Part shown: piece by piece, positions 3,588 to 27,957 of the stretch | How the letters are laid out: the number at the start of each line of letters is the position of its first letter | Numbering within the stretch: position 1 is the first letter of the stretch | Origin: an uncultured Eggerthellaceae bacterium | Lineage (GTDB): Bacteria > Actinomycetota > Coriobacteriia > Coriobacteriales > Eggerthellaceae | Length of the DNA stretch: 45,774 nucleotides | Assembly: GCA_949840905.1 (NCBI GenBank) | Contig: CATKXW010000018.1 | Span: forward strand, 1-45,774 | Direction of reading: 5' to 3' | Notes under the pieces: model-generated | The model's input: the letters and a program-made list of their open reading frames with translations, nothing else | Told to the model about the DNA's origin: nothing | The model's database searches: none | Program-made: the position numbers and the translations under genes

Positions 3588-4097
3588 TCACCCCACGAAG
3601 CGGAACGTGAGCTGGTCGCCGTCTTGGAGGATGCAGGCGCTGGGGGCTTCGGTCTGCACAGTGCCGTTCACCTCGTAGGTCCAGTGGCTGCCCTCACCGG
3701 CATCCCCGTTGCCCAGACCACCGATGGACACCACCTCGGTGCCCTGGTCGGTCTGCTCGGTGACCACCTCGCGCTGGGTTGCCTGGAGCGCTTCGAGGGC
3801 ATCGGCCCCCGCAGGCGCGTTCACCGTGAGCGTCTCTTCCGAGAACTGCAGCTGCGTCTCTTGCAACTGAGAGCCGGCCACATCCTCGGTCAACAGCACG
3901 CTCACCGTGATGTCGTCAGACGGCGCCGTTGCCGCATCGCTCGACGCAGCGCTGCTGGATGCGGCGCTCGAGCTCGCCGAGGGAGCCGCAGGCTGCGGGG
4001 AGGCACAACCGCTCAGCAGAACCGTCATCATCAGGGCGAGGGCCACTAGCGCAAGCGCTGCGGCCGCCCCCTTCTTCGATCCAATGGTCATCATCAT
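3588..4097 (-). CDS. DUF4430-type lipoprotein, last gene of molybdoenzyme operon
   Basis: A 169-residue predicted lipoprotein. The N-terminus has a basic start, a hydrophobic segment and the lipobox LLSGC near residue 31, then a Ser/Ala-rich linker of about 30 residues. The rest resembles the DUF4430 (transcobalamin C-terminal-like) domain: GSHWTYEVNG near residue 138 and a final DGDQLTFRF are typical. The family is often found on the outer face of the membrane, and its ligand here is unknown. It starts 28 bp after the NrfD-like gene on the same strand, so it is probably co-transcribed with the oxidoreductase and may bind a substrate or cofactor for it (inference). An AGAGGGG ribosome site precedes three consecutive ATGs, so the start may be one or two codons later. 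Confidence 0.75.
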   Translation of the reverse strand: MMMTIGSKKGAAAALALVALALMMTVLLSGCASPQPAAPSASSSAASSSAASSDAATAPSDDITVSVLLTEDVAGSQLQETQLQFSEETLTVNAPAGADALEALQATQREVVTEQTDQGTEVVSIGGLGNGDAGEGSHWTYEVNGTVQTEAPSACILQDGDQLTFRFVG

Positions 4098-4124: not shown

Positions 4125-5027
4125 TCACATCCATGGTTGCACTATGGTGATGGGCATGGCCGCCACCAGCACCAACAGGCGCAGGGTGAAGCCGCCCACT
4201 AGCACGAGCACGTCAGAGGTCGCGCTTATCATATGCCCGGTGCGCGATTCCTCCACCTCCTTGCTCGACATGAACAGCATCTTCCATTCCAACAGCGTGG
4301 GAATGACGAGGCCCAGCAGGATGAACACCAGCCAGAACGCCGGCGAGCAATCACCCGCCAGCAGGTTCATCACCGATGCATAGCCTGCGCTCTCAGCGCT
4401 GCTCGCCGTCACGAAGAGCAGCGAGGCCACCAAGAACAGCTCCACCACCGGCAGCCAGAAGTGGAACTTCTTCAGATCGGCCACGCTGCTGAACTCCTTG
4501 GGCGAGCGGAAGATGCCCACCAGGAGCACCGCGGCCATGCCCGTGGAAACGGCCGACACCAGAAAGAGCACGGGCAGAAGCGCGTTGTTCCACAGCGGGA
4601 ACGTCTTCGCCACGCCCAGCAGACAACCGGTGTAGACGCACACGCACAGGCCGAGAGCAGCGCCGACCACGTCGAGCCACAGCGGCACCTTGCGCCCTTT
4701 GCCCAGAAGATCCATGACCAACACGATGAGCGCCACTACCACGAAGGCAGCGAGGAACACCACGCCCCAGGTCATGACCGAACCGAAGTTCGTGAGCAGG
4801 AAGATGAAGCGCAGCGGATTGTGGAATCCCGCTGTCGCATCGAAGATGAGCAGCACCAGGCCGATGCAGACCGCCACAGGACCGATGATGCGGCCATAAC
4901 GGATCAGATGCACCGCGTAGGGTGCCCGCAGATGCAGATAAGCCGCCGTGATGAAGGCGCCGCCTCCAAGTCCGGCGAGGAACAGATACCACGCGATGAT
5001 CGTTCCCCATACAGGTTCGAAAGTCAT
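4125..5027 (-). CDS. NrfD/PsrC-family membrane anchor subunit
   Basis: About 300 residues, almost entirely hydrophobic, with roughly eight membrane segments, beginning with TIIAWYLFLAGLGGGAF, which is typical of NrfD/PsrC proteins. These subunits anchor molybdopterin enzymes and exchange electrons with menaquinone. I chose the ATG at 5027 because GAGG lies eight bases upstream; an earlier in-frame GTG (5036) and ATG (5033) are also possible. The gene overlaps or abuts the stop of the Fe-S subunit gene, so the two are translationally coupled. The operon order (catalytic, Fe-S, anchor) matches polysulfide, thiosulfate and DMSO reductase-like complexes; the substrate cannot be read from this subunit. 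Confidence 0.88.
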   Translation of the reverse strand: MTFEPVWGTIIAWYLFLAGLGGGAFITAAYLHLRAPYAVHLIRYGRIIGPVAVCIGLVLLIFDATAGFHNPLRFIFLLTNFGSVMTWGVVFLAAFVVVALIVLVMDLLGKGRKVPLWLDVVGAALGLCVCVYTGCLLGVAKTFPLWNNALLPVLFLVSAVSTGMAAVLLVGIFRSPKEFSSVADLKKFHFWLPVVELFLVASLLFVTASSAESAGYASVMNLLAGDCSPAFWLVFILLGLVIPTLLEWKMLFMSSKEVEESRTGHMISATSDVLVLVGGFTLRLLVLVAAMPITIVQPWM

Positions 5028-5032
5028 GGCCA

Positions 5033-5575
5033 TCACCTCACGTAGAACACTTTAGCTTTGGTGAGATCGCCCGCTATGGGAGCGGCTTTGGTGCGCGCGA
5101 TCTCGCGCACGATCTCACTGTCGGGATCGTCCAGGTCACCGAAGATGCGCGCACCGGTCAGGCACGCCTCCACGCACGAGCACATCTTGGTGCCCGACTG
5201 CTCGGCCGAGACGGTGCAGAAGCGGCATTTGTCCACCGCCCCGGTCTGTGGGTTGCGCACGCGCACCTGGTAAGGACAGGCCGCCATGCAATACAGACAA
5301 CCGATGCAGCGGCCCTGATCGACCGAGACGATACCGTCGGCGCCCATATGGGCCGCCCCGGTGGGGCACACCTGAGCGCAGGGAGCGTCTTCGCAGTGCA
5401 TGCACTGCAACGGAACGTTCTCGATGGACGCATCAGGGAACTCCCCCACTTCCCGTTGCTCGAAGCGGATGAAGTCCTCAGTGGGCAGAAGGTCGTTCTG
5501 CCGCTGGCAAGCGGTCCTGCACGTGTAGCAGCCGATGCACTTCGTCGTATCTATCAACATGCCATAGCGTGCCAT
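5033..5575 (-). CDS. DmsB/PhsB-like 4Fe-4S electron-transfer subunit
   Basis: A protein of 180 residues with the four cysteine clusters of the DmsB/PsrB/NrfC family: CIGCYTCRTAC near the N-terminus, CMHCEDAPCAQVCP, CIGCLYCMAACP, and CRFC with the later CSCVEAC. These would hold four [4Fe-4S] clusters and pass electrons between the molybdopterin subunit and the NrfD anchor. No Tat signal is visible, as is usual for a subunit exported bound to its Tat-carrying partner. AAGG lies about six bases before the ATG at 5575; a second ATG one codon upstream overlaps the stop of the catalytic gene. Its neighbours are the catalytic subunit upstream and the anchor downstream, both overlapping. Confidence 0.92.
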   Translation of the reverse strand: MARYGMLIDTTKCIGCYTCRTACQRQNDLLPTEDFIRFEQREVGEFPDASIENVPLQCMHCEDAPCAQVCPTGAAHMGADGIVSVDQGRCIGCLYCMAACPYQVRVRNPQTGAVDKCRFCTVSAEQSGTKMCSCVEACLTGARIFGDLDDPDSEIVREIARTKAAPIAGDLTKAKVFYVR

Positions 5576-7863
5576 CATTCACCTTCTTTCCACAGGTTCA
5601 CGCACGCTTCTTGCGTGCAGAGCGTGCCATAGGCCTCGCGCACCACCGGCTCGCAGAAAAGGGCCGGATCGATGCCTGCGCCAGAGGCATCCTGTCGTTC
5701 GTCGTCAACATGACCGAAGAAACCGGGCAGATACACGGCCGAAGGGGCGATGCGCTGGGTGACGAAAGCTCGTCCCTTATAGGAGGCCAGATCATTATGG
5801 ATGCCCACTTCGTCGCCATTCTCGATGCCCAGCAATGCAGCTACCTGAGCGTTGATCCAGATAGAGTCGAGATGGTACTTCTCAGCGATGGTCGCAAGCT
5901 CGGCGACGTCGTAGCCGCGCGGACCTATGACCGACTGCTGGCCCGAGATGAGCCGCAGCTTCATTTCCGGAGCGCTATGACCGCGCTCTTCGTCGAGAAC
6001 GGCTTCGATGACGTCATGCTGACCGAAGTTCCGATCATATTCGATCACCTCGCGAATGTTCGAGACCGCCAAAGGGGGCGACCATACGGGCACCGCAGAC
6101 AGCCCCGCCTGCGCGCACGCAGCGCTCGCGCATTGTATCTTGCCGCTGGGCGTGGCCCAAGCGCGCTGGGTCGGCACGTTCCCCAAGGCGATGGTGCCTT
6201 CCTCCCGCACGGCATCGAGAGAGGCGCCCACGACCGCTAGCTGACGGCCAGCGGCCTCGTCCAACGTGAAGTCGAACGCATCGCCCAGATCGCATGCCAC
6301 GGCCAGCTCGGAGATGATGCGGTCGATCGGGAGAGGACCGGCGTCGCGGGATGCGACCTCGATGACCGGGCTTGCGATGGATACCGAAGGCGCTGGGCCC
6401 TGATCGAATACGGGAAGCGTTGCGCTCTGCAGATACCAGCACAACGGCAGCACGAAATCGGCCAACTGGGCCGTGGCGGTCATGCGCGGAGCTGCGCACA
6501 CCACCAGATCAGCGGTGCTCAGCGCACCGGCTACGTTCATGGAAGCGTAATCGTAGGCGATGTCGGCATCAAGGACGAACAGCGCGTCTATGGCACCGCG
6601 CCCCATGAGCTCGATAGCCGTGGCCATCGAACCACCGAAGGGACGTCCCAAAGGCCCGCTGTTCGATGACAGCGCAGAGCCTAGGATGACCCCTTCCTTC
6701 GCCACCGTCGGCATGACCTTCGCGAAGGATGCCGCGCTATAGTCGAAGGGCAAACGAGCGCTCCCATCAGCTCCCCACGTGCCCAACAACATGTTGAGCA
6801 AGCATACCACTCGTGCGGTCTCGCCTGAGTTCGCATAAGCGTCAGCGGCCATGGTGCCGTTGCCGTACTGGATGGCCACCCGAGGAGCCGCAGCAGCCAG
6901 CTCGGCTGCCAGAGACTCGATGCGGTAGCTCTCCACTCCAGTGATATCGGCGGCCCAACGGGCCGTGAACCCGTCGATGGCCCTGGCCCACTCGTCGAAG
7001 CCGCTCGCGTTGGCGGCCACGAAGGCTTTGTCGTAACGGTCGGTGCGGATGAGCTCGTTGCACACGGCCAGCAGCAGTGCCAGCTCGGTTCCCGGGTTCA
7101 CCGCCAACCAACTGTCGGAGAACGAAGCGATGGTACCGAGCCGCGGGTCGATGGCCGTGATGGACGCACCTGCCCGTCGCGCCGCCTGCAACGCAGCGAC
7201 CAGGTCGGGAGCGCATACATCGGCGTAGCTGGTGTCGATGAGCAGCACTGCCTTCGCCTCTGCGATATCGGTCTCGTAGCTGCCAGTGCCGATGACCTGT
7301 GCGAATCCCGCCGCCTTGCTGACGTTGGTCACCACGTCGTCGACGAACACGTTAGCGCTACCGAGCCGTTCCATGAAGCGCTGGCCGTAGGCTGAGGCCG
7401 TGGGCGATGTGCCATCGGTGACCAGCGCCACCGCCTCAGGCCCTTCGGTGCTCAGCACAGCCTCCAGCCGATTCGCGATCTCGCCATAGGCCTCTTGCCA
7501 AGAGATGGGCTCGAAACGCCCATCGGGCATGCGCCGCAGCGGCCGATCGATAGCGTCATCAGAAGCGATGCTCTGAGCATATCCGTAACCGCGAGCGCAC
7601 AGCATGCCGCGAGCATGAGGGTTGGTCGCATCTCCTATGAGCTTGCCAAGGGAGCCATCCACCTTATAGGCCGTGAAGCCGCAGGCATTGGAGCATCCTT
7701 GGCAGATGCTATGGATCTGCTCGTTAGCAGGCTGGGCATCAGCTCCGATATGGCCGCCCTGAGCGAACACCTCGCTGGCGCCCACGCCCGTACAAGCGAG
7801 CACCGCACCAGCCCCGGCGCAGCCGGCCACGAAGCGCCGTCGTGTGAAAGGTCGTGTTCCCAT
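5575..7863 (-). CDS. Tat-exported molybdopterin oxidoreductase catalytic subunit
   Basis: About 762 residues. The N-terminal TRRRFVAG followed by a hydrophobic stretch is a twin-arginine export signal, so the enzyme acts outside the membrane. The [4Fe-4S] motif C54-x2-C57-x3-C61-x27-C89 and the following Mo-bisPGD domains place it in the DMSO reductase superfamily, nearest by feel to the PhsA/PsrA group. At the place where that group has a Cys (or Ser) molybdenum ligand, after LGSANVF (168-174), I read D-D-V-V-T-N with no Cys; T179 or S182 would be nearest. The start at 7863 is chosen for GAGG nine bases upstream; a GTG at 7884 overlaps the upstream stop. It is the second gene of the operon. 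Its substrate is unknown. Confidence 0.88.
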   Translation of the reverse strand: MGTRPFTRRRFVAGCAGAGAVLACTGVGASEVFAQGGHIGADAQPANEQIHSICQGCSNACGFTAYKVDGSLGKLIGDATNPHARGMLCARGYGYAQSIASDDAIDRPLRRMPDGRFEPISWQEAYGEIANRLEAVLSTEGPEAVALVTDGTSPTASAYGQRFMERLGSANVFVDDVVTNVSKAAGFAQVIGTGSYETDIAEAKAVLLIDTSYADVCAPDLVAALQAARRAGASITAIDPRLGTIASFSDSWLAVNPGTELALLLAVCNELIRTDRYDKAFVAANASGFDEWARAIDGFTARWAADITGVESYRIESLAAELAAAAPRVAIQYGNGTMAADAYANSGETARVVCLLNMLLGTWGADGSARLPFDYSAASFAKVMPTVAKEGVILGSALSSNSGPLGRPFGGSMATAIELMGRGAIDALFVLDADIAYDYASMNVAGALSTADLVVCAAPRMTATAQLADFVLPLCWYLQSATLPVFDQGPAPSVSIASPVIEVASRDAGPLPIDRIISELAVACDLGDAFDFTLDEAAGRQLAVVGASLDAVREEGTIALGNVPTQRAWATPSGKIQCASAACAQAGLSAVPVWSPPLAVSNIREVIEYDRNFGQHDVIEAVLDEERGHSAPEMKLRLISGQQSVIGPRGYDVAELATIAEKYHLDSIWINAQVAALLGIENGDEVGIHNDLASYKGRAFVTQRIAPSAVYLPGFFGHVDDERQDASGAGIDPALFCEPVVREAYGTLCTQEACVNLWKEGE

Positions 7864-7880
7864 GTCGATCATCCTCACCT

Positions 7881-8660
7881 TCACGCATCGACCAGGGTCA
7901 CGGTGCGAACCACGCCGGCGTCGAGAGCAGCCTGGGCGATGTTCTTCCAGTCAACGAACTTGATGGCACCGTTGGGGCACTGAGCGGCGCAGCGACCGCA
8001 CGAGACGCACTTGGTGGAGACGTCGGTCTCCGAGTCGATGCGAGGCATGTTCCACGGGCACGCCTGGGTGCACATGCCACAGCCGATGCATGTCTTGTCA
8101 TCCACCACGCGAGCGCCCGTCTTCGGGTCGGCGTAGATGGCATGCACCGGGCAATAGTTGGCGCACCATGGATCCTCGCACTGCTTGCAGTGCGCGACGG
8201 TGAACTCGCAGTTCTCGTAGATGCCGTCGCCGGTGCCTATGCCGCGACCGAAATTGTAGTTGTCCCACACGCGCACCCGAGCGATATGCTGGCTCACGCG
8301 CCCGTCGTTCTTCAAAGTGCAGGCCATCTCGCAACGTTGGCAGCCCGAGCAGCGAGCGCGATCGGTCACGATCATCTTGGTGGGAGTGGTGCGGATGTCG
8401 ATGCGCCCCGATGCGATGGAGCGCTCGGTGACGCCCCAAGAAGCGAGCACGCCGCCCGCTACCAGGCCCGCAACGCCGCAGCCGCACATGGCGAGCACGT
8501 CGCGGCGGGTGAAGGTGCGCTTCTTCTTCGGTTCATCGGTTCCGGGTCCTTGCGCATCGGATGGCATCGGCGCTCGCTCCGCAGGCTGCGGGGCGTTCTC
8601 CGAAGCGTCCTTTATGAAAGGGATCTTCCGACCTTTGGTCCCCTCGTTCTCGGCAGACAT
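7881..8660 (-). CDS. Tat-signal ferredoxin with four 4Fe-4S clusters
   Basis: First gene of the five-gene operon, 259 residues from the ATG at 8660, which has an AGGAGG site six bases upstream; an in-frame ATG at 8678 lacks one. A polar leader of about 45 residues is followed by FTRRDVLAMCGCGVAGLVAG, a twin-arginine motif with a hydrophobic core, so export or membrane tethering is likely. Four cysteine groups follow: CSGCQRCEMAC, CKQCEDPWCANYCP, CIGCGMCTQACP and CVSCGRCAAQCP. The protein resembles electron-transfer subunits that accompany molybdo- and tungsto-enzymes. The operon thus codes for two different Fe-S subunits, this one and the DmsB-like one. The divergent neighbour is an aldehyde:ferredoxin oxidoreductase. 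Confidence 0.85.
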   Translation of the reverse strand: MSAENEGTKGRKIPFIKDASENAPQPAERAPMPSDAQGPGTDEPKKKRTFTRRDVLAMCGCGVAGLVAGGVLASWGVTERSIASGRIDIRTTPTKMIVTDRARCSGCQRCEMACTLKNDGRVSQHIARVRVWDNYNFGRGIGTGDGIYENCEFTVAHCKQCEDPWCANYCPVHAIYADPKTGARVVDDKTCIGCGMCTQACPWNMPRIDSETDVSTKCVSCGRCAAQCPNGAIKFVDWKNIAQAALDAGVVRTVTLVDA

Positions 8661-8980
8661 CTTCAGCCTCCTCGTCATAGTTCATGTTCATGACAGCGAG
8701 GAAGCTCCATCGCACCTATTCGATTCTGCACAGCGCATACGATGCTCTCCACCATAACCGTTTCGAGCCCGCGCCGCTACCGAGATGATGCCATATCGTC
8801 GAATCGGTCACCATTCTGTAACCTTTCGCACCGTTATGTTACGAAACGTTAAACATTTCGCCATCTCGCCCTCCGCATCGCCATGGATAGCCGTAGAATA
8901 CGAAGGCATGAGGGCTCCAGATCGCGCTGTCATTCGTGTCTGCACAGCACAAGGACAAATCGAAGGTTTGGAGATTCACA
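8661..8980. promoter_or_regulatory. divergent promoter region between ferredoxin operon and aor
   Basis: This 320-bp stretch holds no gene and must carry promoters for both operons. The middle (8805-8860) is AT-rich against a GC-rich background. It contains an imperfect dyad: GTAAC (8818-8822) and TTTCG (8824-8828) are mirrored by CGAAA (8842-8846) and the following CGTTAAAC. GTAAC also pairs with GTTAC at 8838-8842. A TAGAAT at 8894-8899 could be the -10 box of the rightward gene, without a good -35. This is where a shared regulator would be expected to bind; no regulator gene is adjacent. Confidence 0.45.
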
Positions 8981-11110
8981 ATGGATGCAACGTTATCCTA
9001 TGGTTGGGCGGGCAAGATACTGCGCGTTAACCTGAGCGACGGCACCATCACTACGTTCGCCACCGCTCCTTATGAGGATTACATCGGAGGGATGGGCATC
9101 GCGAACAAGATCATGTTCGACGAGGTGCCCGCTGGGGTGAAGCCCTTCGACGAGGAGAACAAGGTGGTGTTCGCCGTCGGTCCTCTGACGGCCACAGGCA
9201 CGCCCTTGGCAGGCCGTACCACCATCGCTTCCCTCTCCACCTACACCAAAGACGAGCAGGTCATCGACGCGCACTGCGGCGGCATGCTGGGCGCGCGCAT
9301 CAAGCAGGCCGGCTACGATGGCATCGTCATCGAGGGCAAGGCCGCATCTCCGGTATATGTGATGATCGACGATGATGACGTGAAGATCAAGAGCGCGGAT
9401 GGCATCTGGGGCCTAGGCACCCGCGCCGCCACCGAGACGCTATGCCGTCGCGAAGGCCTTGATGTGGTGGTGGCCACCATCGGACCGGCCGGCGAGAACC
9501 TGCTACCCTACGCATGCATCATCAACTCACGTAACCATTCAGCGGGCGCCGGCACCGCTGCTGTGCTGGGTTCGAAGAACATGAAGGCTCTCGTGGTGCG
9601 CGGCACCGGCACGGTGAACGTGGCCGACCCGCAGAAGATAGCCGAGCTGTCCGACTACATGCTGCGCGAGATCGTGGGCTCCAACAACAACCACGTGGTG
9701 CCCTCCACCCAGCAGGAATGGGCCCAGTATTACGACAAGGGCTCGCGCTGGACGGCGCGGGACGGTCTGTACTGGGCGCTCGCCGAGGGCGGCCCCATCA
9801 ACACTGGCGAGCCGAAGCCCGGCGAGATCAACACCGTGGGCTATCGTTGCATGAAGTCCACCAAAGACGACGGGCCCGACGCCGAGAAGTACACCATCAA
9901 GATGGACGGCTGCCATAGCTGCCCCATCCACTGCTTCTCTGACATGTACGTGCCGCCCAGCGAGGAGAACGGCGGCTACGCCACCACGGGCAACACCTGC
10001 GTGCCGAACTTCCCCTACCTTTATATGACCGACATCCTCGAATCGGGCATCCCCAGCTCCTCAGAAGACGGCCTGATATGGAACCAGGTGATCGGTTCGG
10101 TCATGGACGATCTGGGACTATGGTGCAACTACGCGCAGCTCTATCGCGACATCGCCCACTGCGTGCATGACGGCGTGTTCCAGCGCGTGCTGCCGCCCGA
10201 GGAGTACGCGGCCTTCGACTGGGACAAGTTCTATCGCAACGATCCTACCATCATGCCCGAGCTGCTGCGCAAGATAGCTCAGAACGACTCCGAGCTCGCC
10301 TACATCGGCCACGGCACCTACCTGTGGACCCAGCGCTGGGACGACATGGGATGGAACGACACCGTCGCTTCGTGCATGATCAGCCCCCGTGGCTGGCCGG
10401 TGCACCATGCACAGGAGTGCTTCGCCCAGGTGGGACTGTTGTACAACATGATGTTCAACCGCGACGACATGATCCATTCCGCCGTGAACTTCCAAGGGTG
10501 CGGCCTACCGTTCGAGCTGAAGCAGCAGATAGCCGCCGAGGTATGGGGTAGCGCCGATGCCATCGACATGGACAAGGACTACACGCCCATGAACGAGCAT
10601 AAGGCGAACTTCTGCTGGTGGTCCATCGTGACCGACGTGCTGCACGATTCGCTCACGCTGTGCAACTGGGTGTGGCCCATGACCGTCTCGCCCACCGCAG
10701 CCCGCGACTACCGCGGCGACCTTGACCTGGAGGCCAAGTTCTTCAAGGCCGCCACGGGCCGAGACGTCACCACCGAAGACCTCTACAAGGCCGGCGCGAA
10801 GATCATGACGCTGCAGCGGGCCAACACCGCCCGCGGCATGACCGACGCCTCCGGGAAGATGGGCACCAACGACTTCCGCACCTATCACGACGTGGTGACG
10901 GAATGGCCCTTCACCAAAGACCCCGACAAGCAGCCCTTCACGCCCGGCACCGACAAGATGGAGAAGGGCGACTTCCAGAACGCCCTGACCATGCTCTACC
11001 GCACGTTCGGCTGGGACGAGAAGCTGGGCTGCCCCACCGCCGCCTGCCTCGATGCCTACGATATGCCCGACGTGAAAGAGGAGCTGGCCTCCCTGGGCCT
11101 TCTGCCCTGA
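8981..11110 (+). CDS. aor: aldehyde:ferredoxin oxidoreductase family protein
   Basis: A 709-residue member of the tungsto-bispterin AOR family, which oxidises aldehydes (or reduces acids) with ferredoxin in the cytoplasm. The N-terminal domain reads GKILRVNL and, further on, GPLTATGTPLAGRTT and IINSRNHSAGAGTAAVLGSKNMKA, all typical. The [4Fe-4S] ligands appear as C311-x2-C314-x3-C318 (CHSCPIHC) and C561 in LTLCNWVWP. I start at the ATG 8981, with GGAG seven bases upstream, rather than an upstream GTG without a site. At over 700 residues it is longer than classical AOR (about 600), so it may belong to a subfamily with a different substrate. It is single, with two hairpins behind it, and divergent from the ferredoxin operon. 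Confidence 0.93.
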   Translation: MDATLSYGWAGKILRVNLSDGTITTFATAPYEDYIGGMGIANKIMFDEVPAGVKPFDEENKVVFAVGPLTATGTPLAGRTTIASLSTYTKDEQVIDAHCGGMLGARIKQAGYDGIVIEGKAASPVYVMIDDDDVKIKSADGIWGLGTRAATETLCRREGLDVVVATIGPAGENLLPYACIINSRNHSAGAGTAAVLGSKNMKALVVRGTGTVNVADPQKIAELSDYMLREIVGSNNNHVVPSTQQEWAQYYDKGSRWTARDGLYWALAEGGPINTGEPKPGEINTVGYRCMKSTKDDGPDAEKYTIKMDGCHSCPIHCFSDMYVPPSEENGGYATTGNTCVPNFPYLYMTDILESGIPSSSEDGLIWNQVIGSVMDDLGLWCNYAQLYRDIAHCVHDGVFQRVLPPEEYAAFDWDKFYRNDPTIMPELLRKIAQNDSELAYIGHGTYLWTQRWDDMGWNDTVASCMISPRGWPVHHAQECFAQVGLLYNMMFNRDDMIHSAVNFQGCGLPFELKQQIAAEVWGSADAIDMDKDYTPMNEHKANFCWWSIVTDVLHDSLTLCNWVWPMTVSPTAARDYRGDLDLEAKFFKAATGRDVTTEDLYKAGAKIMTLQRANTARGMTDASGKMGTNDFRTYHDVVTEWPFTKDPDKQPFTPGTDKMEKGDFQNALTMLYRTFGWDEKLGCPTAACLDAYDMPDVKEELASLGLLP

Positions 11111-11124
11111 TCGCCACCGACGAC

Positions 11125-11217
11125 GGCCCGCCGCGGTGAGCGCCGCTCGCTCAGGCGGGCCCCTCTCTCGATGAGATGGCCCCCCTTCCGTCGATACGAT
11201 GCGGAAGGGGGGCCATC
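11125..11217 (+). terminator. double hairpin after aldehyde oxidoreductase gene
   Basis: Two hairpins follow the stop. The first pairs GGCCCGCC (11125-11132) with GGCGGGCC (11154-11161). The second pairs a 16-base arm (11175-11190) perfectly with 11202-11217. No U-tract follows, so termination may need Rho, or the hairpins may protect the mRNA ends of the two convergent genes. Confidence 0.6.
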
Positions 11218-11240
11218 GCTATGCTCACGCGGTTACGGCG

Positions 11241-11318: not shown

Positions 11319-12752
11319 TCACACGTTGCGGTATCGATCGACCGACGACCATTCGGCCAGGGCGGTCGCATGCTCGGCATCCAGGTGCGCCGAAGAGTAG
11401 AAGTAGACATCGCCGTTGCTGGCCTCCAAGCGCTCCAGGTCGCCATAGGCCTCCTGCTTGCGAGCCCTTTGAAAGACCGCCTCCACCTCTTCGGCACCCA
11501 TCTCGATGGGGCGATTGGCGAAGCTTTCCCGAGCCATGGGCCGCGGATAGGTGCGCGATTCTTCCCGTACGCAATAGACGAAGGTGGCCAGCGGATCGTC
11601 TTCTTGGGCCAGATAGGCCCAGCGAGCGAACGCCGCGGTCATGACGGTACCATCGTAGAGGTAGGTGGTCTGCGGACCAAGCATCGCCCGAATGCCCGAG
11701 CCGTCCACCGTCCGATGCACAGGCGCTGCGGCCTCATCGGTCTTCACGAGGCCCCAAACGCCCTCCACCTCCACGAGCTCGTAACCGTCAGGTGGCCGCA
11801 ATTCGAAGTCGTCGTCAGAAAGAGGCTCTTCTGGGGCGAGGGCCCGCTTGGTCTCGGGCATCGCCGCAGGCTCAACGGTATCCGCGAAGAGCGATGGGAT
11901 GCCCACCCCTCGATCCGCGTAGGCGGACCGCTCCGGGCCCTGAGAGACGGGCGCTAAGGCCGCAGCGGCTGGGTCGGGGGCCTCGGTGGCTCCCTCCTCT
12001 TCCTCACAGCGCGCCAACAACATGGCGGAGAACTCCGCGGCGCTCAGATGGGACGGCACGAGATGGTCCCAATCGGCCGCTACGGTCAGTGTTCCGCGAG
12101 CGGTGTTGGCGCGCACTAGGTCGAACGCCGCAGCACAGGCGTTATCTTCGACACGCTCCCGTTCGGCCGCTTCCTCTTCCAGCCGCAGTTCCAAGCGCGA
12201 CTGGCGCAGCGAGCAATGCTCGGCCATCAAACACGAGACGGACTGCTCGTCGCACGGCACCGCCTCGTCCAGACCGGCCAGGTCGGCACCGTCTCGCAGA
12301 AGCATATCGCCCACCAGCGCCTTCACCGCGCACACCGAGAAGTGCAAGGCGTTCACCTTGCCGGGTGGCACCCCATCCACCGCTTCGCGCACCTCTTCGG
12401 TCGTCAGCTCCAGCGCCTCTTCGATGCCCTTGCCCTCCACCAGCGAACACGCGACGCTGGCGCAACCGGTCATGGCCAAGCAGCCTCGCGTCTTGAACCC
12501 GGCCGCCTCGATGATGCCCGTCGCAGGATCGATGCGCGCGAACAGACGGCACGCCACCTCTCCGCGCTTCGACTTGCCCACCATGCTCTGGGCGTTCGCG
12601 CCCTCGGGCCGACCGGAGTTCTCGAAGGCGGCCACGATGGCCAGCAAGCGATCGGAATAGGACTCCACCTCGTCGGGCGCTTCGGTCTGATACACATCGG
12701 CGGTGCGCAGCAGCACGCGCTCCTCCGGCTTCTCGTAGACGTTGCGCTCCAT
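11319..12752 (-). CDS. NifU/IscU-like protein with altered ligands and long C-terminal extension
   Basis: 477 residues from the ATG at 12752 (AAGG seven bases upstream). Residues of about 30-155 resemble the IscU/NifU scaffold that builds Fe-S clusters: DPATGIIEAAGFKTRGC aligns with the strand leading to the second conserved Cys (C91). The other ligands differ. The usual ACGDV is KRGEV (R63 for Cys, E65 for Asp), and the usual HCS is H137-F-S-V-C141, with the Cys moved. Extra Cys lie at 97 and 102. After an acidic, Ala-rich linker, the last 150 or so residues form an unrecognised domain (YELVEVEGVWGLVK, TYLYDGTVMTAAFARWAYL). It may serve Fe-S or W/Mo enzyme maturation, given its neighbour (inference). 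It is convergent with the aldehyde oxidoreductase gene. Confidence 0.7.
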   Translation of the reverse strand: MERNVYEKPEERVLLRTADVYQTEAPDEVESYSDRLLAIVAAFENSGRPEGANAQSMVGKSKRGEVACRLFARIDPATGIIEAAGFKTRGCLAMTGCASVACSLVEGKGIEEALELTTEEVREAVDGVPPGKVNALHFSVCAVKALVGDMLLRDGADLAGLDEAVPCDEQSVSCLMAEHCSLRQSRLELRLEEEAAERERVEDNACAAAFDLVRANTARGTLTVAADWDHLVPSHLSAAEFSAMLLARCEEEEGATEAPDPAAAALAPVSQGPERSAYADRGVGIPSLFADTVEPAAMPETKRALAPEEPLSDDDFELRPPDGYELVEVEGVWGLVKTDEAAAPVHRTVDGSGIRAMLGPQTTYLYDGTVMTAAFARWAYLAQEDDPLATFVYCVREESRTYPRPMARESFANRPIEMGAEEVEAVFQRARKQEAYGDLERLEASNGDVYFYSSAHLDAEHATALAEWSSVDRYRNV

Positions 12753-12916: not shown

Positions 12917-14359
12917 CTAGCAGCGATGACCGCTGGCGCGTCGGCGCAATGCCAACAGGCACGACACCACGATGATCACCACCGAAGCGCCGGCCACCAA
13001 GGGCAGCTCCCCGTCACCGGTCTGCTGCACGGTCGCGCGCACCGAGGGGTCAGAGGCCGGTCGGGTCACCACAGCAGCCTTCGCGCTCTCATCCGGCGTG
13101 GCCACCTGGGTCGAGCGGTCAGCATGGTCGGGCGTGTCATCTGGCGTGGCCGGCTGGGTCGGATCGTTCTCTCGCGCTTCCTTCTGCGCCACCACGTAGG
13201 GCCCAGTGGACTCATGAGCGATCACATAGCCTTCGGGCATGTAAGCACCCACATCGCGATTCCAGCGACCGCCGGTCACCCGCAGCGTGGCCCCGGCGGG
13301 ATCATCGTCAGAGGCGAACACCTTGCCTTGCAGCTCGAAGGTGCCGTCCTTCGCCTCGATGACGTTCTGCGCATCATCGCCCACCGCGAGGGCGCTGCTC
13401 TCGCCAAGGGCCTTTACCGTGGAACCCAGACCGAACGTCACCGTGTTGCCCTTGGCCTGCAGCCGCTGGGCATCCGTCGATCCAGCGAACATCACCACCG
13501 CTTGGACGAGGTCGGAGGCGGTGGAAGCCTGAGCCGTGACCGAGGAGCTCTCCACGTTCACCCTCACGTTCTCGCACCCTTGGATGGTGATGGTGCCGAG
13601 GCCGTTGGTAGCCCCGGTGATGCCGGTGGACGACAGGGCCGATCCGGCGATGATATCTATGACGGAGCCGGACGAGCCAGCGGAGGAATCCTGGCCTCTC
13701 ACGTACAGTGCGCTGTAGCCGGACACGTCGGTGTCAGCCAAGGTGAGCTGCACAGGATTGAGCGTCACGATGCCGAAGCCCGAAGCTGAAGCGCTCAGCG
13801 TGCAACCGTTGAACGCGATGGACGTAGCCTGCGGCGTATTGCCGCCCGCAGTGAACACCTGGGTGGAACCGGTGCCGGTGGCGGCCATGATAGCGTCGTC
13901 GAAGATGAGCTCCTTATAGCCGTTGCGAGCCGACACCACTCGGCCGTCCGGGCTCGGGTTGGTCACGGTGATGTTGCGGAACGTGGTGCGATACGTATGA
14001 GCCTCATCCGGCCCTCCCACCACATATATGCCAAGGCCTCCCACGGTCAGAACGTGCCCTTGGCCGTCTATGGTGAGCGGCTTGGCAAATCTCAGAGCCA
14101 CCTGATTGTCACCGCTGGCCGTTACGCCGGATACCGTAGCATCAGCGAGCAGGTTCACGGTCGCGCCCTCGGCAGCGGCATCCACCGCCTCTTCGAAGGT
14201 GCTATAGAAGGCAGCGGTGCCATCAGGGGCGACCACCTGGGCGATAGCCCCCTGCTCGCTCGGCAACGGATCGGCGAACGCCGGAGTGGTGGGCAACAAC
14301 AACAGAAGAGCTGCCGCCGCGCAGGCTAGCAGCTCGCTCAATGGTTTCGGCAGGCTCAT
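12917..14359 (-). CDS. secreted wall-anchored surface protein, pectate-lyase-like repeats
   Basis: 480 residues from the ATG at 14359, which has GAGGAG nine bases upstream (an ATG two codons earlier sits too close to it). The N-terminus is a Sec signal peptide ending PAFA, near residue 30. The body contains segments such as LTIDGQGHVLTV, FRNITVTNP, FNGCTLSASASGFGI and LTLADTDVSGYSALYV, which resemble right-handed beta-helix (pectate-lyase-like) surface proteins. The C-terminus has a Thr/Asp/Pro-rich stretch, a QQTGDGE sorting-like motif, a hydrophobic segment and a basic tail, as in sortase substrates, although the Pro of LPxTG is replaced. It is probably displayed on the cell wall. Its binding partner is unknown. 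It appears to be a single-gene unit. Confidence 0.8.
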   Translation of the reverse strand: MSLPKPLSELLACAAAALLLLLPTTPAFADPLPSEQGAIAQVVAPDGTAAFYSTFEEAVDAAAEGATVNLLADATVSGVTASGDNQVALRFAKPLTIDGQGHVLTVGGLGIYVVGGPDEAHTYRTTFRNITVTNPSPDGRVVSARNGYKELIFDDAIMAATGTGSTQVFTAGGNTPQATSIAFNGCTLSASASGFGIVTLNPVQLTLADTDVSGYSALYVRGQDSSAGSSGSVIDIIAGSALSSTGITGATNGLGTITIQGCENVRVNVESSSVTAQASTASDLVQAVVMFAGSTDAQRLQAKGNTVTFGLGSTVKALGESSALAVGDDAQNVIEAKDGTFELQGKVFASDDDPAGATLRVTGGRWNRDVGAYMPEGYVIAHESTGPYVVAQKEARENDPTQPATPDDTPDHADRSTQVATPDESAKAAVVTRPASDPSVRATVQQTGDGELPLVAGASVVIIVVSCLLALRRRASGHRC

Positions 14360-14520
14360 CGACATCAGCTCCTCACGCCCCTTCCGAGCGGTGCGCCGCA
14401 GCACCTTCCGCTCGACGGTTCTTCTCACCGATGACCTTAGCCGTCCCTGCGCGCCTCCGAGCCCCACGCTCGCGATCCCTTACCCCCCTGCAACCCAAAT
14501 GAAACCGATCCGTGGAAAAG

Positions 14521-15555
14521 CTAGTCGCCGAACAGCTTGCGTTGAGAGATGCGGCCCTTCGGCTTCGCGATGACCCAGTCGAGGTGCGGCCTCGCGAGCG
14601 TCGAGGCCGGATCGGCGGCGAAAGCGAGGCAAGAGGAGTTCAGCGACCGGAGCACTTCTTCGAGCGACACGCCTCTTCGCTTGATTTCTTCGAGGTGCTC
14701 TTTGAAGGCTCCATAGAGCTCATCGCGCTTGGCTGCGCGGATCTGTGGTGCTGCGCCTACCAACCACTGATGCAGAGCAGCATCGATGTAGAGGTCTTGA
14801 TCGGGAGAGAATCGGCGAAACGCTCTTTCGATGGGCCCCCAATACAGCGCGAACAAACGCTCCTGCTCCTCAAAACCGTAGGTCATCAGCAAGGTGTTTC
14901 GCAAGAGGTCCGCAGTGGTGAGCGGACGTCCTTTAGCGTTCAAGCTCTCGAACACTTGCTGGGGACTATCGTTCGGACCCAGTTCCACAGCGACCGTCCG
15001 AAGCTCCTTCAAGCCTCGCCATAGCGCTTCGCGATCGAATCCTTCACCGCGCATCCGCGCGGTGAACCTCTCGAAGCTCTGAACGAGGAAGCGCGAGGGT
15101 TCGCCGACCATGGTAATCTCGCCCTCGCCCGCCACGATGGCATCAAGGGTGGCCGCATCGGCGCGGGAGAGCGTCAGCTTCGCCCCACCATCAGGCGCTC
15201 GCAGATACTCCCGGTCGATAGCAACGGCGAGGACCTTATCGTCTTCACTGCCTTCGCGCAGAACGTCTCGTAGCGCTGCCAACATCAACGTGAGCGTGGT
15301 CAAGCGCTGCTGACCGTCGATCACTCCGAGCGCTGCGATGCCCCTCTGCGCTCCATCAGGCTGCTCGGTATCGGGCAGATATATCATAGTGCCAAGGAAA
15401 TGCGCCACGCCATCGCGCCCGGCCTGCAGCGTATCGACCAACAGCTGATCGCATTGGGGGCCGGTCCACGCATACACCCTCTGGAAGACCGGCACGAAGA
15501 ATCGCACGTGAGGCTTCCCGAGGATAGCGAGCACAGGCTCCAACGATGCTCTCAT
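14521..15555 (-). CDS. DUF262-only protein, second of tandem pair
   Basis: 344 residues from the ATG at 15555 (AGGAGAGG upstream). The N-terminal half has the DUF262 hallmarks FVPVFQRVYAWTGPQCDQLL and, near residue 85, VIDGQQRLTTLTLML. DUF262 is a ParB/Srx-like NTPase or nuclease fold, known as the N-terminal part of GmrSD-type modification-dependent restriction enzymes and related defence proteins. The DUF1524 HNH nuclease that usually follows is absent; the protein ends at RISQRKLFGD. It lies 13 bp after its paralogue, so the two are probably one operon. Whether it cuts or senses DNA cannot be said from sequence. Confidence 0.82.
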   Translation of the reverse strand: MRASLEPVLAILGKPHVRFFVPVFQRVYAWTGPQCDQLLVDTLQAGRDGVAHFLGTMIYLPDTEQPDGAQRGIAALGVIDGQQRLTTLTLMLAALRDVLREGSEDDKVLAVAIDREYLRAPDGGAKLTLSRADAATLDAIVAGEGEITMVGEPSRFLVQSFERFTARMRGEGFDREALWRGLKELRTVAVELGPNDSPQQVFESLNAKGRPLTTADLLRNTLLMTYGFEEQERLFALYWGPIERAFRRFSPDQDLYIDAALHQWLVGAAPQIRAAKRDELYGAFKEHLEEIKRRGVSLEEVLRSLNSSCLAFAADPASTLARPHLDWVIAKPKGRISQRKLFGD

Positions 15556-15568
15556 AGATCCTCTCCTT

Positions 15569-16645
15569 TCACCAACGCGCATCCACTGCGCGCAACTGTT
15601 CTCTCACTCGCTGCGCATAAGCTTCGTCATCAGCCTTCTTCAGGCTGTAGCCTGCCGTGAGCGCCGGAGCTCCTATCTCGGCCCAGTCAGAAGCCGACTT
15701 GTACTTCTTCGTCCCGTGATAGCGGTAGTTCTCGGCCCACATGAGGCTGAAGCCGCGCAATTCGCGCAAGATAGGCTCTTTCGCACCCGTGTAAACGTCT
15801 TCGGCATATCGCTTGAACGAACCATAGACCTGCTCGGCACTGCGAATGCGCGCACCCTTCAAACGGATGGAAAGCCAGCTCTTGATGGCACCATCGAGGC
15901 GCAACGAACCCGGATCCGGAGCGAACATCTCCTCGATGGGCAGCCAGTACCCCTCATAAAGGCGCTCCTGTTCTTCGCGACTCTCCGCGAGCAGAAGATG
16001 GTTGCGCACCATATCGGCCACGGAGAGCCGCACGCCCTTGGAGTTCACTCCCTCGAACACGATCTGACCGAGCGCAGCATCTTCCAGCTCCACTTCGATC
16101 ACCACGAAGCGCAGAAGCCCCTCCCAGAGCAGCTCGAGGTCGAAGCCATCCTCTTCGAGACGCCCTTCGAAGAATGCGACAGCATCGCGCATCGGAGAGG
16201 GTTCGAGCCCCGCCGAACCTTCCTCTAAAGCCCTCCGATATGCCTCTCGATCGGGGCGAGAAGGCAAGAGGCGCAAAGAGCGCACCTCATCGTCTTTCTG
16301 GAACAGGCAGTCATCTATCGCTTGAAGAGCCCCTTCGTCGCCGACCCCGTTCTGTTCTTCGCCCAGACAGCGACGAAGAACGGACAGCAGCAACGTTATG
16401 GTGGTGATGCGCTGCTGACCATCTATCACTAGCAAGCGTTCAGAGTCTCCATCCTCGCTCTCCTTGACATATATGATCGTGCCGAGGAAGTGATCCCGTG
16501 CGCTTCGGGCTGCGCGCAACGCATCGAGCAAGAGCTCTTCGCACTGCTCTGCGTTCCAAGAATAGACGCGCTGATACAACGGTATGACGAAACAGCTCTG
16601 TCCCGATCCGAACATATCCAATAGGCCTCGTTGCGAAACGTTCAT
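15569..16645 (-). CDS. DUF262-only protein, first of tandem pair
   Basis: 358 residues, paralogous to the next gene. The motifs are FVIPLYQRVYSWNAEQCEELLLDAL near residue 20 and LVIDGQQRITTITLLLSVL near residue 72. The middle region also matches the paralogue: in both, a stretch naming an effect on a gene product (IVFEGVNSKGVRLSVADMVRNHLLL here) is the conserved helix block of DUF262. Again there is no C-terminal HNH domain. The ATG at 16645 has GGAGG five bases upstream. It diverges from a TetR-family gene across a 171-bp gap. The pair may act as a heteromer in defence or stress control, which is an inference from family context only. Confidence 0.82.
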   Translation of the reverse strand: MNVSQRGLLDMFGSGQSCFVIPLYQRVYSWNAEQCEELLLDALRAARSARDHFLGTIIYVKESEDGDSERLLVIDGQQRITTITLLLSVLRRCLGEEQNGVGDEGALQAIDDCLFQKDDEVRSLRLLPSRPDREAYRRALEEGSAGLEPSPMRDAVAFFEGRLEEDGFDLELLWEGLLRFVVIEVELEDAALGQIVFEGVNSKGVRLSVADMVRNHLLLAESREEQERLYEGYWLPIEEMFAPDPGSLRLDGAIKSWLSIRLKGARIRSAEQVYGSFKRYAEDVYTGAKEPILRELRGFSLMWAENYRYHGTKKYKSASDWAEIGAPALTAGYSLKKADDEAYAQRVREQLRAVDARW

Positions 16646-25656: not shown

Positions 25657-27957
25657 TCAGGGACGGATGGTACGGGGGACAGGAGCGGTGCAGTCTATGA
25701 TGGTGGAGGCGGTGCCGCTAGGGATGGTGGGGGTGGGGAAAACGGAGACGGCGAGGCGAAGCTCGTCGTTCACCTGGTCGAGAGAGCGCGGCGCGGGCTC
25801 GCCTGTCAGGTTAGCCGACGTAGTAGCAAGCGGGCTTCCCACGGCATCGATGAGCATGCGGATGTGCGGACAGCCGGGCATGCGCAAAGCTACGGTGCCC
25901 TCAGCGCTACGGAACGCAGCAGGCACGGCATCGCTGGCGGCCACGATGATCGTAAGCCCCCCCGGCCAGCCGTTTCGGACCAGCTCATGGGCGTAGAGCG
26001 GCACATCGGCACCATAACGATCGAGGTCGTCGAGGCTCCCCACCAACCAAGCGACGGGCTGGTCTTCTGGGCGATGCTTCAAGCGAGCGAGCACGGCCGG
26101 GCTCGCGGCATGTTCTACGGCCACTCCGAGGCCGACCACGGTATCGGTCGGGAACAACAACGGCTCGCCGGCCCGCAACCGCGCGACGGCCCCCGCCAGG
26201 TCGAGAGCGTCAGCCATATGCTCCGCAGCATCTTTCGGGCCATGCATCACCTCTTCCACGATGGCCTCTGCCACCCGCAAGCCGTCCACCGCAGCGCTCA
26301 TGATGCCCCCGGCATAGCCGGCCCCCTCGCCGGCAGGATAGACCCCCTGCAACCGAGATCGCCCAACACTAGCTCCCAGCGCCTGAAAGCTCTCATCGCG
26401 CACCAGCCGCACCGGAGCGGAGCTGCGCGCTTCCACCCCGCACAGCACCGCCTCAGGATGCGCGAACCCCGGCAGCTTCCGATCGAGAGCGACAAGCCCG
26501 CGTTCCAGCGACCGTGCCACGAACGGCGGCAGGCACTCTCGCAGATCGCTCCACGCCACGCCGCGCGGATAGGTCGGCTCCACCAGCGAGCTCACCGTCC
26601 CCTGGGCATGGGCGAGGAAATCCCCCACGGTCTGGGCCGGCGCCGTATAAGGCGCTCCACCGCGCTCGATCCCCAACTGGAAGGCGTCTCGCTCCATGCG
26701 CCGTTGCAGCTCGATGCCCGCGAGCACATCATCGCCGGGCAGATCATCGGGCGCCACCTCCACCAAAAGCGCGCTGTTAGCATTGCGCCCATCGCGCGCA
26801 TAAGGGCTCATGCCGTTCACGCACAGGCCGCCCTCCTCGCTCGCTGCCGCCACCACCTCCCCGCCCGGGCACATGCAGAAGGTGTACACGCCGCGCGTCG
26901 CAGCCTCAGCGCTATCCTTAGCAGGGGCTTCCTCGTCATCCACGCGCACGGCCAGCTTATAGTCGGCCGCGCCCAAGGCGGGATGGACAGCGGCAGCGCC
27001 GTATTGCAGCTCATCGATGAAGGACTGCGGATGCTCGATGCGCACCCCCACGGCGAACCGTTTGCGCTCCATCGCCAGCCCCGCTCCCCGCAGCATCTCG
27101 TAGGTATCGCGCGCGGAATGGCCGCACGCCACCACGATGCGATCGGTCGGTATCCTCGATCGCTCTCCGCTGACCGTATCGGTGACCAACGCCGCCGCCA
27201 CGGCTCCTTCGACCAGGTCGACCCCATCGAAGCGCGTCCGGAACAACACGGTGCATCCGCGAGCGATCAGCTCTTCTCGCATCGAGGCCACCACCTGCGG
27301 CAACCGATCGGTACCGATGTGGGGCTTCGCGTCCACGAGGATGGAGCCAGGGGCACCATGCTCCACGAAGGTCTCTAGCACGCGCCTGATGTGAGGGCTT
27401 TTGATGCCCGTGTTCAGCTTGCCGTCGGAGAACGTGCCAGCCCCCCCCTCCCCGAACTGGATGTTGCACTCCGTATCGAGCGCATCTCCTCCTGAGGGGC
27501 GGGCGAAGCCGTCGACCACCCGCTGGCGTTCCTCCACCGCTGCCCCTCGCTCGAGCAGCGTGACCGGGATGCCAGCGCGCGCCAGATAAAGGGCGCAGAA
27601 CAACCCTGCCGGCCCCGATCCCACCACGACCGGACGGACAGCTCCGCTCCGCTCGAACGCCTCTGCCACCTGAGGGATCGACCAGCAGCCGAGCTCCCGA
27701 TGGGGGTTCACGGCCACTCCGCGCCGTGGGCGCAGCGCAGCCGGATCATCGCAGGACGGCACCGCTGCCACCACGGTGACCACACCATGAACGTCGCTCT
27801 TCTTGCGCGCGTCGATGCTGCGCTTGAGAAGGCGCACCGCAGCGAGGGCCGACGGCTCCACGCCCAAGGCGCACGCCACCTCCTCGTGCAACATCCTCTC
27901 GTTCTCGGGCAGAAGAGCGTCGAGGCTCACAGGGATGTTCGAGCATCGCAGCTCCAT
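25657..27957 (-). CDS. FAD-dependent dehydrogenase fused to Sua5/YrdC domain
   Basis: 766 residues in one uninterrupted frame. Residues 1-570 are a COG2509-type FAD-dependent dehydrogenase: an N-terminal alpha/beta part, then the dinucleotide fold GSGPAGLF (113-120) and ERGAAVEERQRVVDGF, and further on CNIQFGEGGAGTFSDGKL and a GYAGGIMSAAVDG FAD-closing motif. Residues of about 581-766 are a Sua5/YrdC/TsaC domain, which makes threonylcarbamoyl-AMP for tRNA t6A: PTDTVVGLGV, KHRPEDQPVAWLV, VALRMP, TTSANLTGEP and PSGTASTIID are all present. The two are normally separate proteins. An internal ATG (26217) could also give free YrdC. AGGAGG precedes the start, and the upstream flavoprotein gene ends one base away, so they are coupled. 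Confidence 0.88.
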   Translation of the reverse strand: MELRCSNIPVSLDALLPENERMLHEEVACALGVEPSALAAVRLLKRSIDARKKSDVHGVVTVVAAVPSCDDPAALRPRRGVAVNPHRELGCWSIPQVAEAFERSGAVRPVVVGSGPAGLFCALYLARAGIPVTLLERGAAVEERQRVVDGFARPSGGDALDTECNIQFGEGGAGTFSDGKLNTGIKSPHIRRVLETFVEHGAPGSILVDAKPHIGTDRLPQVVASMREELIARGCTVLFRTRFDGVDLVEGAVAAALVTDTVSGERSRIPTDRIVVACGHSARDTYEMLRGAGLAMERKRFAVGVRIEHPQSFIDELQYGAAAVHPALGAADYKLAVRVDDEEAPAKDSAEAATRGVYTFCMCPGGEVVAAASEEGGLCVNGMSPYARDGRNANSALLVEVAPDDLPGDDVLAGIELQRRMERDAFQLGIERGGAPYTAPAQTVGDFLAHAQGTVSSLVEPTYPRGVAWSDLRECLPPFVARSLERGLVALDRKLPGFAHPEAVLCGVEARSSAPVRLVRDESFQALGASVGRSRLQGVYPAGEGAGYAGGIMSAAVDGLRVAEAIVEEVMHGPKDAAEHMADALDLAGAVARLRAGEPLLFPTDTVVGLGVAVEHAASPAVLARLKHRPEDQPVAWLVGSLDDLDRYGADVPLYAHELVRNGWPGGLTIIVAASDAVPAAFRSAEGTVALRMPGCPHIRMLIDAVGSPLATTSANLTGEPAPRSLDQVNDELRLAVSVFPTPTIPSGTASTIIDCTAPVPRTIRP

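Follow-up and report, generated by a model that had tools for sequence, protein, structure and literature searches.

IscU is a universal scaffold for Fe-S clusters; its ligand positions, which we take to be C37, D39, C63, H105 and C106 in IscU numbering, include the sulfur acceptor C106, and its LPPVK motif is the site of chaperone binding. For the AOR/WOR enzyme family, a 2023 review states that no enzyme-specific chaperone is known. Within this family, the Class V WORs are typified by E. coli YdhYVWXUT, with a YdhV-type large subunit that carries a Cys ligand, a YdhY-type small subunit, and YdhW (PMC13328260). The Cys ligating the metal in the YdhV clade is Cys336 (PMC12096430). Class V WORs have no known substrate. 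According to PMC13328260, the complex is predicted to be periplasmic, aldehyde oxidation has not been shown for YdhV-type enzymes and the E. coli member prefers molybdenum; the account given there of Class V WORs assigns YdhW no function. E. coli YdhV was purified without a functional [4Fe-4S] cluster and was inactive as isolated, with a 'hyper-active' cysteine contributing to cluster instability; no chaperone was identified, and cofactor uptake in vitro proceeded without one (PMC9103625). In Cetobacterium, a third gene is listed with those for the large (L) and small (S) subunits, its function and subunit status being unclear, and expression of L and S alone gave only L, which was inactive on 46 aldehydes (PMC13328260). 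For Coriobacteria, the same paper describes an uncharacterised pyranopterin subunit besides a transmembrane one, and it contains no mention of NifU, IscU or a scaffold (PMC13328260). Our search of the literature outside subscription journals found no report joining aldehyde ferredoxin oxidoreductase, NifU and Eggerthella.

The window analysed here, a stretch of 45,774 nucleotides from an uncultured gut bacterium of the Eggerthellaceae (order Coriobacteriales), is contig 18 of a 1.98 Mb genome assembled in 44 contigs. It contains an AOR-family gene on the plus strand (8936..11110) encoding a YdhV-type large subunit (WorL, Class V; NF007354, 1024 bits, cut-off 868) that shares 52% identity with E. 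coli YdhV; its C355 aligns with the metal-ligand Cys336. An earlier note, made from the letters of this DNA, had placed a tungsten-type aldehyde oxidoreductase convergent with the gene studied here; the arrangement and the enzyme family are right, and the tungsten/aldehyde label should give way to YdhV-type (Class V, clade 41). Four minus-strand genes are divergent from the AOR and encode a YdhY-type ferredoxin subunit (WorS; 7881..8678; NF007382, 217.2 bits, cut-off 213), a PhsA-like molybdopterin oxidoreductase subunit (MopB; 5575..7884) with a twin-Arg motif, an NrfC-like 4Fe-4S subunit (5033..5578) and an NrfD-like membrane subunit (4125..5036). The N terminus of the YdhY-type protein is twin-Arg-like, with TRRDVLAM followed by a hydrophobic stretch, as judged by eye. 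On its sequence, the enzyme belongs to the Class V WORs as PMC13328260 defines them, having a YdhV-type WorL, the Cys ligand, a WorS with a Tat-like N terminus and further subunits, with the class assigned from the NF007354 score and apart from the clade tree of that paper. Compared with E. coli YdhYVWXUT, the window adds the PhsA-like, NrfC and NrfD subunits and the NifU-like protein described below, and another family of the order has a cytochrome c gene. A gene for a DUF4430 protein (3588-4097, minus strand) comes after the NrfD-like gene. A long hairpin (11177-11215), probably a two-way terminator, lies where the AOR and NifU-YdhW genes converge; the minus-strand fold of 11165-11230 has an energy of -39.3 kcal/mol (z -5.4).

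The NifU-YdhW gene (11319..12752) was confirmed as an open frame of 477 aa on the minus strand, running from 12752 to 11319, and its ATG at 12752 agrees with the start of unfused orthologues. It fuses a NifU/IscU-like protein to a YdhW-like one. The IscU/NifU-like identity proposed earlier is borne out by Pfam NifU_N (PF01592; residues 32-147, 49.6 bits, cut-off 22), the sole Pfam domain in the whole protein at E values up to 1. The protein nevertheless misses the equivalog cut-offs for IscU, NifU and SufU (TIGR01999, 35.5/192.4 bits; TIGR02000, 43.7/273.3 bits; TIGR03419, 55.8/187.9 bits; TIGR01994, 14.5/92.5 bits). The genome has one further NifU_N gene, encoding a canonical IscU (165.8 bits) that retains the standard Cys, Asp and His-Cys set, directly after a cysteine desulfurase gene; the two proteins are 33% identical over 135 columns (BLASTP). 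An AlphaFold model of the whole protein (14 rows) reached a mean pLDDT of 75.5 and a pTM of 0.62; most of residues 30-253 and about 350-465 exceed pLDDT 80. Its IscU part superimposes on 4eb5_C (Z 19.4, 138 aligned, rmsd 2.2) and matches 2z7e_B with a Foldseek E value of 1.2e-8. Two Adlercreutzia orthologues have an Ala/Gly-rich insert in the NifU-like domain, preceding the C91 region.

The IscU-fold domain (residues 32-157; 12282..12659, minus strand) shares with the IscU/NifU N-terminal domain its fold and one Cys; the rest of the ligand set has changed. The residues R63, E65, C91, C97, C102, H137, F138 and C141 are all present as the earlier note gave them, and its central claim, that the canonical ligands are lost, is upheld by alignment: IscU C37, D39, C63, H105 and C106 correspond to R63, E65, C91, N134 and A135, so that of the ligand positions only C91 is kept. 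The placement of R63 at the first Cys and of E65 at the Asp was likewise correct. However, H137-F138, taken to be the His-Cys pair, lies three residues off. BLASTP against the genome's own IscU, MAFFT, and phmmer against solved IscUs all set H105-C106 on N134-A135, so both His and Cys are lost, in another register. C141, read in the note as a Cys that had moved, occupies an ordinary Glu position of IscU (Glu in 51 and Cys in 10 of 61 orthologues). Among these 61 orthologues the C37 position is R in 55, H in four, K in two and never Cys; the D39 position is E in 36, T in 23, and V and S in one each; the C63 position is C in 55, D in four and S in two; and the C106 position is T in 52 and Cys in one. 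By these alignments the canonical IscU ligand site is gone throughout the family. At the position of LPPVK the protein reads VPPGK (residues 128-132), in which P129 is found in 61/61 orthologues and K or R at 132 in 59/61.

In the earlier note, C91, C97 and C102 had been combined into a new cluster site. The conservation of these residues does not support it, C97 being Cys in 48/61 orthologues and C102 in 29/61. As read from the alignment, the conserved set is instead C91 together with a motif that the note had missed, C167-x6-C174-x5-C180-S-L-R (residues 167-183; 12204..12254, minus strand), a candidate metal site just past the IscU fold with the consensus, roughly, C-D-x5-C-x2-[C/T]-E-[H/N]-C-S-L-R. 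C167 is present in 61/61 orthologues, and C174 and C180 in 60/61, the missing case being one row truncated where its contig ends. When 16 diverse members are aligned, the invariant columns include C167, C174, C180, S181, L182, R183, K62 and P129, as well as R16-T17 and Q22 near the N terminus, which is extended relative to IscU and carries a conserved RT..YQ. A further Cys occurs at position 177 in 37/61 orthologues. Among the 61 of 62 rows, window included, that have all five positions, 31 have all five Cys (91, 167, 174, 177 and 180), 24 lack Cys177 but have Cys91, six lack Cys91 but have Cys177, and none lacks both. Each row thus retains at least four Cys, the number wanted by a [4Fe-4S] site, and this complementary loss of Cys91 and Cys177, which follows clades, is suggestive. 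The tri-Cys motif could also be a structural zinc site.

The C-terminal domain had been described as large and unknown. It proved to be YdhW-like (NCBIfam NF007411, E 5.9e-26), although the match of 91.7 bits is below the curated equivalog cut-off of 203. The YdhW-like region spans residues 200-477 (11322..12155, minus strand), with the NCBIfam match as its core (residues 348-476; 11325-11711, minus strand) and a poorly ordered linker or insert with pLDDT under 50 (residues 254-318; 11799..11993, minus strand). Ten rows from three phyla, including the YdhW proteins of E. coli, Proteus and Cetobacterium alongside Coriobacteria, share 13 invariant columns, among them YPRP. The C-terminal part of the model matches single winged helices (4nb5_D, Z 9.0, 77 aligned, rmsd 2.7). 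A model of the Proteus YdhW part (178 residues, 10 rows; pLDDT 87.1) has two helix-helix-helix-strand-strand-helix units, and most of its top PDB matches are winged-helix proteins, including several tandem ones; as every match stays below Z 8, they are taken as 'winged helices' only, and families beyond those listed may also fit. From these models and matches, YdhW is read as a tandem winged-helix protein, with a disordered insert between the winged helices in this family; the insert, the score below the equivalog cut-off and the fusion to an IscU-fold domain set the window's half apart from the YdhW family, to which the domain match, the invariant columns and the position of the gene beside a YdhV-type AOR tie it. 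With a median pI of 4.6 and a mean net charge of -7.9 over 63 rows, the domain is acidic, and the would-be DNA recognition helix is its least conserved element (0.36, compared with 0.82 for the YPRP loop), which makes docking likelier than DNA binding. A kinship of YdhW with encapsulins was considered and dropped, as Cetobacterium YdhW matched the Pfam family-4 encapsulin model without significance (E 0.06) and the E. coli and window sequences gave no match in the same search.

In the orthologous loci the NifU-like and YdhW proteins are mostly encoded separately (55/61), on the same strand in all 55, with YdhW first in 42 and the NifU-like gene first in 13. They are fused in five of the 61 loci, the window being the sixth fusion; the one locus lacking YdhW is on a 4.9 kb contig. 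In a quickly built tree of 62 rows, four changes of the fusion label are seen, and well-supported branches force at least three of them. Unlike IscU, this IscU-fold protein is fused to YdhW or encoded next to it, and its gene does not adjoin IscS. Fifty fetched loci with both the NifU-like gene and an AOR contain YdhW in 50, YdhY in 49, a MopB-like gene in 30, and NrfC and NrfD in 27 each, and the ends of the stretches account for some of the lower numbers. As YdhW and YdhY are kept while other subunits vary, the constant set is the NifU-like protein, YdhW, YdhV and YdhY. In 17 loci of one family (f10; for example L086, 5770-6456), a multihaem cytochrome c (c3/NapC-like) is encoded near the AOR, where other families have MopB, NrfC and NrfD.

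Across 197 genomes of the order, with YdhV-type AORs called at E values up to 1e-100, the NifU-like protein was found in 62 and the enzyme in 62, with 61 genomes having both; the genomes being related, neither these counts nor the Fisher values are probabilities of independent events. Of the two exceptions, one genome, 51% complete, has the NifU-like gene on a 4.9 kb contig and no AOR, and the other has the AOR and YdhW at a contig end and no NifU-like gene. Within genera, the NifU-like protein and the enzyme are also missing together, in one genome of genus g6 (G178) and two of g10 (G164, G187). The pair is on one contig in 52/61 genomes, within 9.5 kb in 52/52 and within 5.4 kb in 51/52; in the other nine the AOR is on another contig, including all three carriers of genus g74 (G090, G169, G183). 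The conserved linkage to metalloenzymes that had been named beforehand as a test was therefore found. Any AFOR_N domain occurs in 89 genomes, and the NifU-like protein is present in none of the 27 of these that have only other AOR-family genes and no YdhV-type gene. Canonical IscU (>120 bits) occurs in 52/197 genomes but in only 15 of the 62 carriers, so the NifU-like protein follows the enzyme rather than the ISC system. One genome (G095) has a second YdhV-type locus with YdhW, YdhY, MopB, NrfC and NrfD and no NifU-like gene nearby; its single NifU-like gene lies at its other YdhV-type locus.

A profile built from 16 NifU-like members gives 255-320 bits with near-full coverage inside the order only; in 296 genomes of the phylum and 149 of the class, the matches listed outside the order scored below 95 bits, mostly to the IscU part. 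In E. coli, Proteus and Cetobacterium, too, YdhW adjoins YdhV, and in none of the three is a NifU-like gene adjacent to YdhW. Together with the second locus of G095, these cases indicate that the NifU-like half is not universally needed. The gene order in Cetobacterium is WorL, the YdhW-like gene, fdhD, tatA, tatC, moeA. Since the YdhW-like gene directly follows WorL, the third gene of the CsWOR41 operon, described from another strain (PMC13328260), is most likely YdhW, as far as sequence can tell.

The analysis shows the fold, the ligand loss, the new conserved Cys, the fusion, and near-exclusive co-occurrence and linkage. We favour, at a probability of about one half, the reading that the NifU-YdhW protein is an enzyme-specific maturation factor for the adjacent Class V (YdhV-type) W/Mo oxidoreductase. 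That it is inherited together with the enzyme suggests a private assembly helper, and the fusion with an IscU-fold protein suggests that maturation is the missing piece for Class V WORs. The Cetobacterium result also speaks for this reading, in that L, expressed with S and no further gene of the operon, was inactive and co-purified with IscS, a co-purification that the authors consider unrelated (PMC13328260). Under the proposed mechanism, the tandem winged-helix (YdhW) domain would dock on cofactor-free WorL/WorS in the cytoplasm, before Tat export; no signal peptide is apparent in the protein by eye, which points to a cytoplasmic location. The IscU-fold domain, presumably no longer a general [2Fe-2S] scaffold, would hold a cluster, sulfur or a metal on C91 and C167, C174 and C180, and this cargo would be passed to, or used to repair, the labile [4Fe-4S]/bis-pterin site of the enzyme. 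Such a factor would resemble the REMPs (TorD/NarJ/DmsD; XdhC) in its proposed enzyme-specific role, its acidity, its apparent want of a signal and its place beside an exported Mo/W enzyme, but it is unrelated to them in sequence (NifU_N being its only Pfam match), has what we take to be a different fold, and brings its own Cys-bearing IscU-fold domain. The re-wired scaffold tied to an AOR that the earlier note envisaged survives in its fold, the loss of the C37 Cys, a new Cys set and a near-exclusive link; its cluster residues were wrong, one ligand pair was misaligned, and its C-terminal domain belongs to a known family. Counting against a maturation factor are the replacement of C91 by D in four orthologues and S in two, the AOR on another contig in G090, G169 and G183, and the chaperone-free cofactor uptake reported for E. 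coli YdhV (PMC9103625). More tentatively, an IscU-fold scaffold may have been turned, within Coriobacteriales, into a client-specific loader or repair factor with a [4Fe-4S]-type site on new Cys, forming with YdhW the first enzyme-specific maturation system to be recognised in the AOR/WOR family, of which YdhW would be the general part, present in three phyla, and the IscU-like half a lineage-specific addition. If true, this shows a universal Fe-S scaffold re-tooled for a single client, and YdhV maturation becomes directly testable in E. coli.

The strongest rival, itself doubtful, makes the protein a permanent subunit of the oxidoreductase, the IscU-fold domain carrying a [4Fe-4S] or [2Fe-2S] electron-transfer cluster and YdhW being structural. 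To our knowledge the IscU fold does not serve as an electron-transfer module, and the long disordered linker in the model also argues against a subunit, whereas co-occurrence and linkage would fit one equally well and YdhW does stand within operons of three phyla. The listing of the third Cetobacterium gene with L and S is compatible with a subunit too; yet the complex is predicted to be periplasmic (PMC13328260) and WorS and MopB are twin-Arg-like, while no Tat or Sec signal is seen by eye in the NifU-YdhW protein. A SufU- or FdhD-like sulfur carrier, whose IscU-fold Cys would hand persulfide sulfur to the W/Mo cofactor or the pterin, seems unlikely, as the position of the acceptor C106 is Ala in the window protein and Thr in 52/61 orthologues, and the invariant Cys are spaced like a metal site rather than a single acceptor. 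On its side are the fold shared with SufU, a sulfurtransferase whose structures are among the model's matches, and the place of fdhD, annotated as a sulfurtransferase, after the YdhW-like gene in Cetobacterium. IscS also co-purified with the Cetobacterium large subunit, which the authors deem unrelated (PMC13328260).

An Fe-S- or redox-sensing transcription regulator, with the IscU fold as sensor and the tandem winged helices on DNA, is improbable. It would draw on the match to 4nb5_D, on the tandem winged helix 6f40_P (Z 7.7, 130 aligned, rmsd 11.6) and on that of SelB (2v9v, Foldseek E 0.016), but the acidity of the YdhW domain and the poor conservation of the would-be recognition helix ruled it down as a first choice. 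Least probable is a degenerate general IscU paralogue serving no particular client; a NifU_N match above the cut-off is what such a protein would give, but the distribution is client-specific and independent of canonical IscU and the new Cys motif is strongly conserved, so this reading is disfavoured.

Elsewhere in the window, a 516 aa ORF (12917-14467, minus strand) has a signal-like segment close to its start and a hydrophobic/basic C-terminal tail, with no match in Pfam or NCBIfam. Two neighbouring GmrSD_N (DUF262) genes (14521-16645, minus strand) are possibly a defence pair, and in a minus-strand ORF at 25657-27957 an FAD-dependent protein is combined with a Sua5/YrdC domain.
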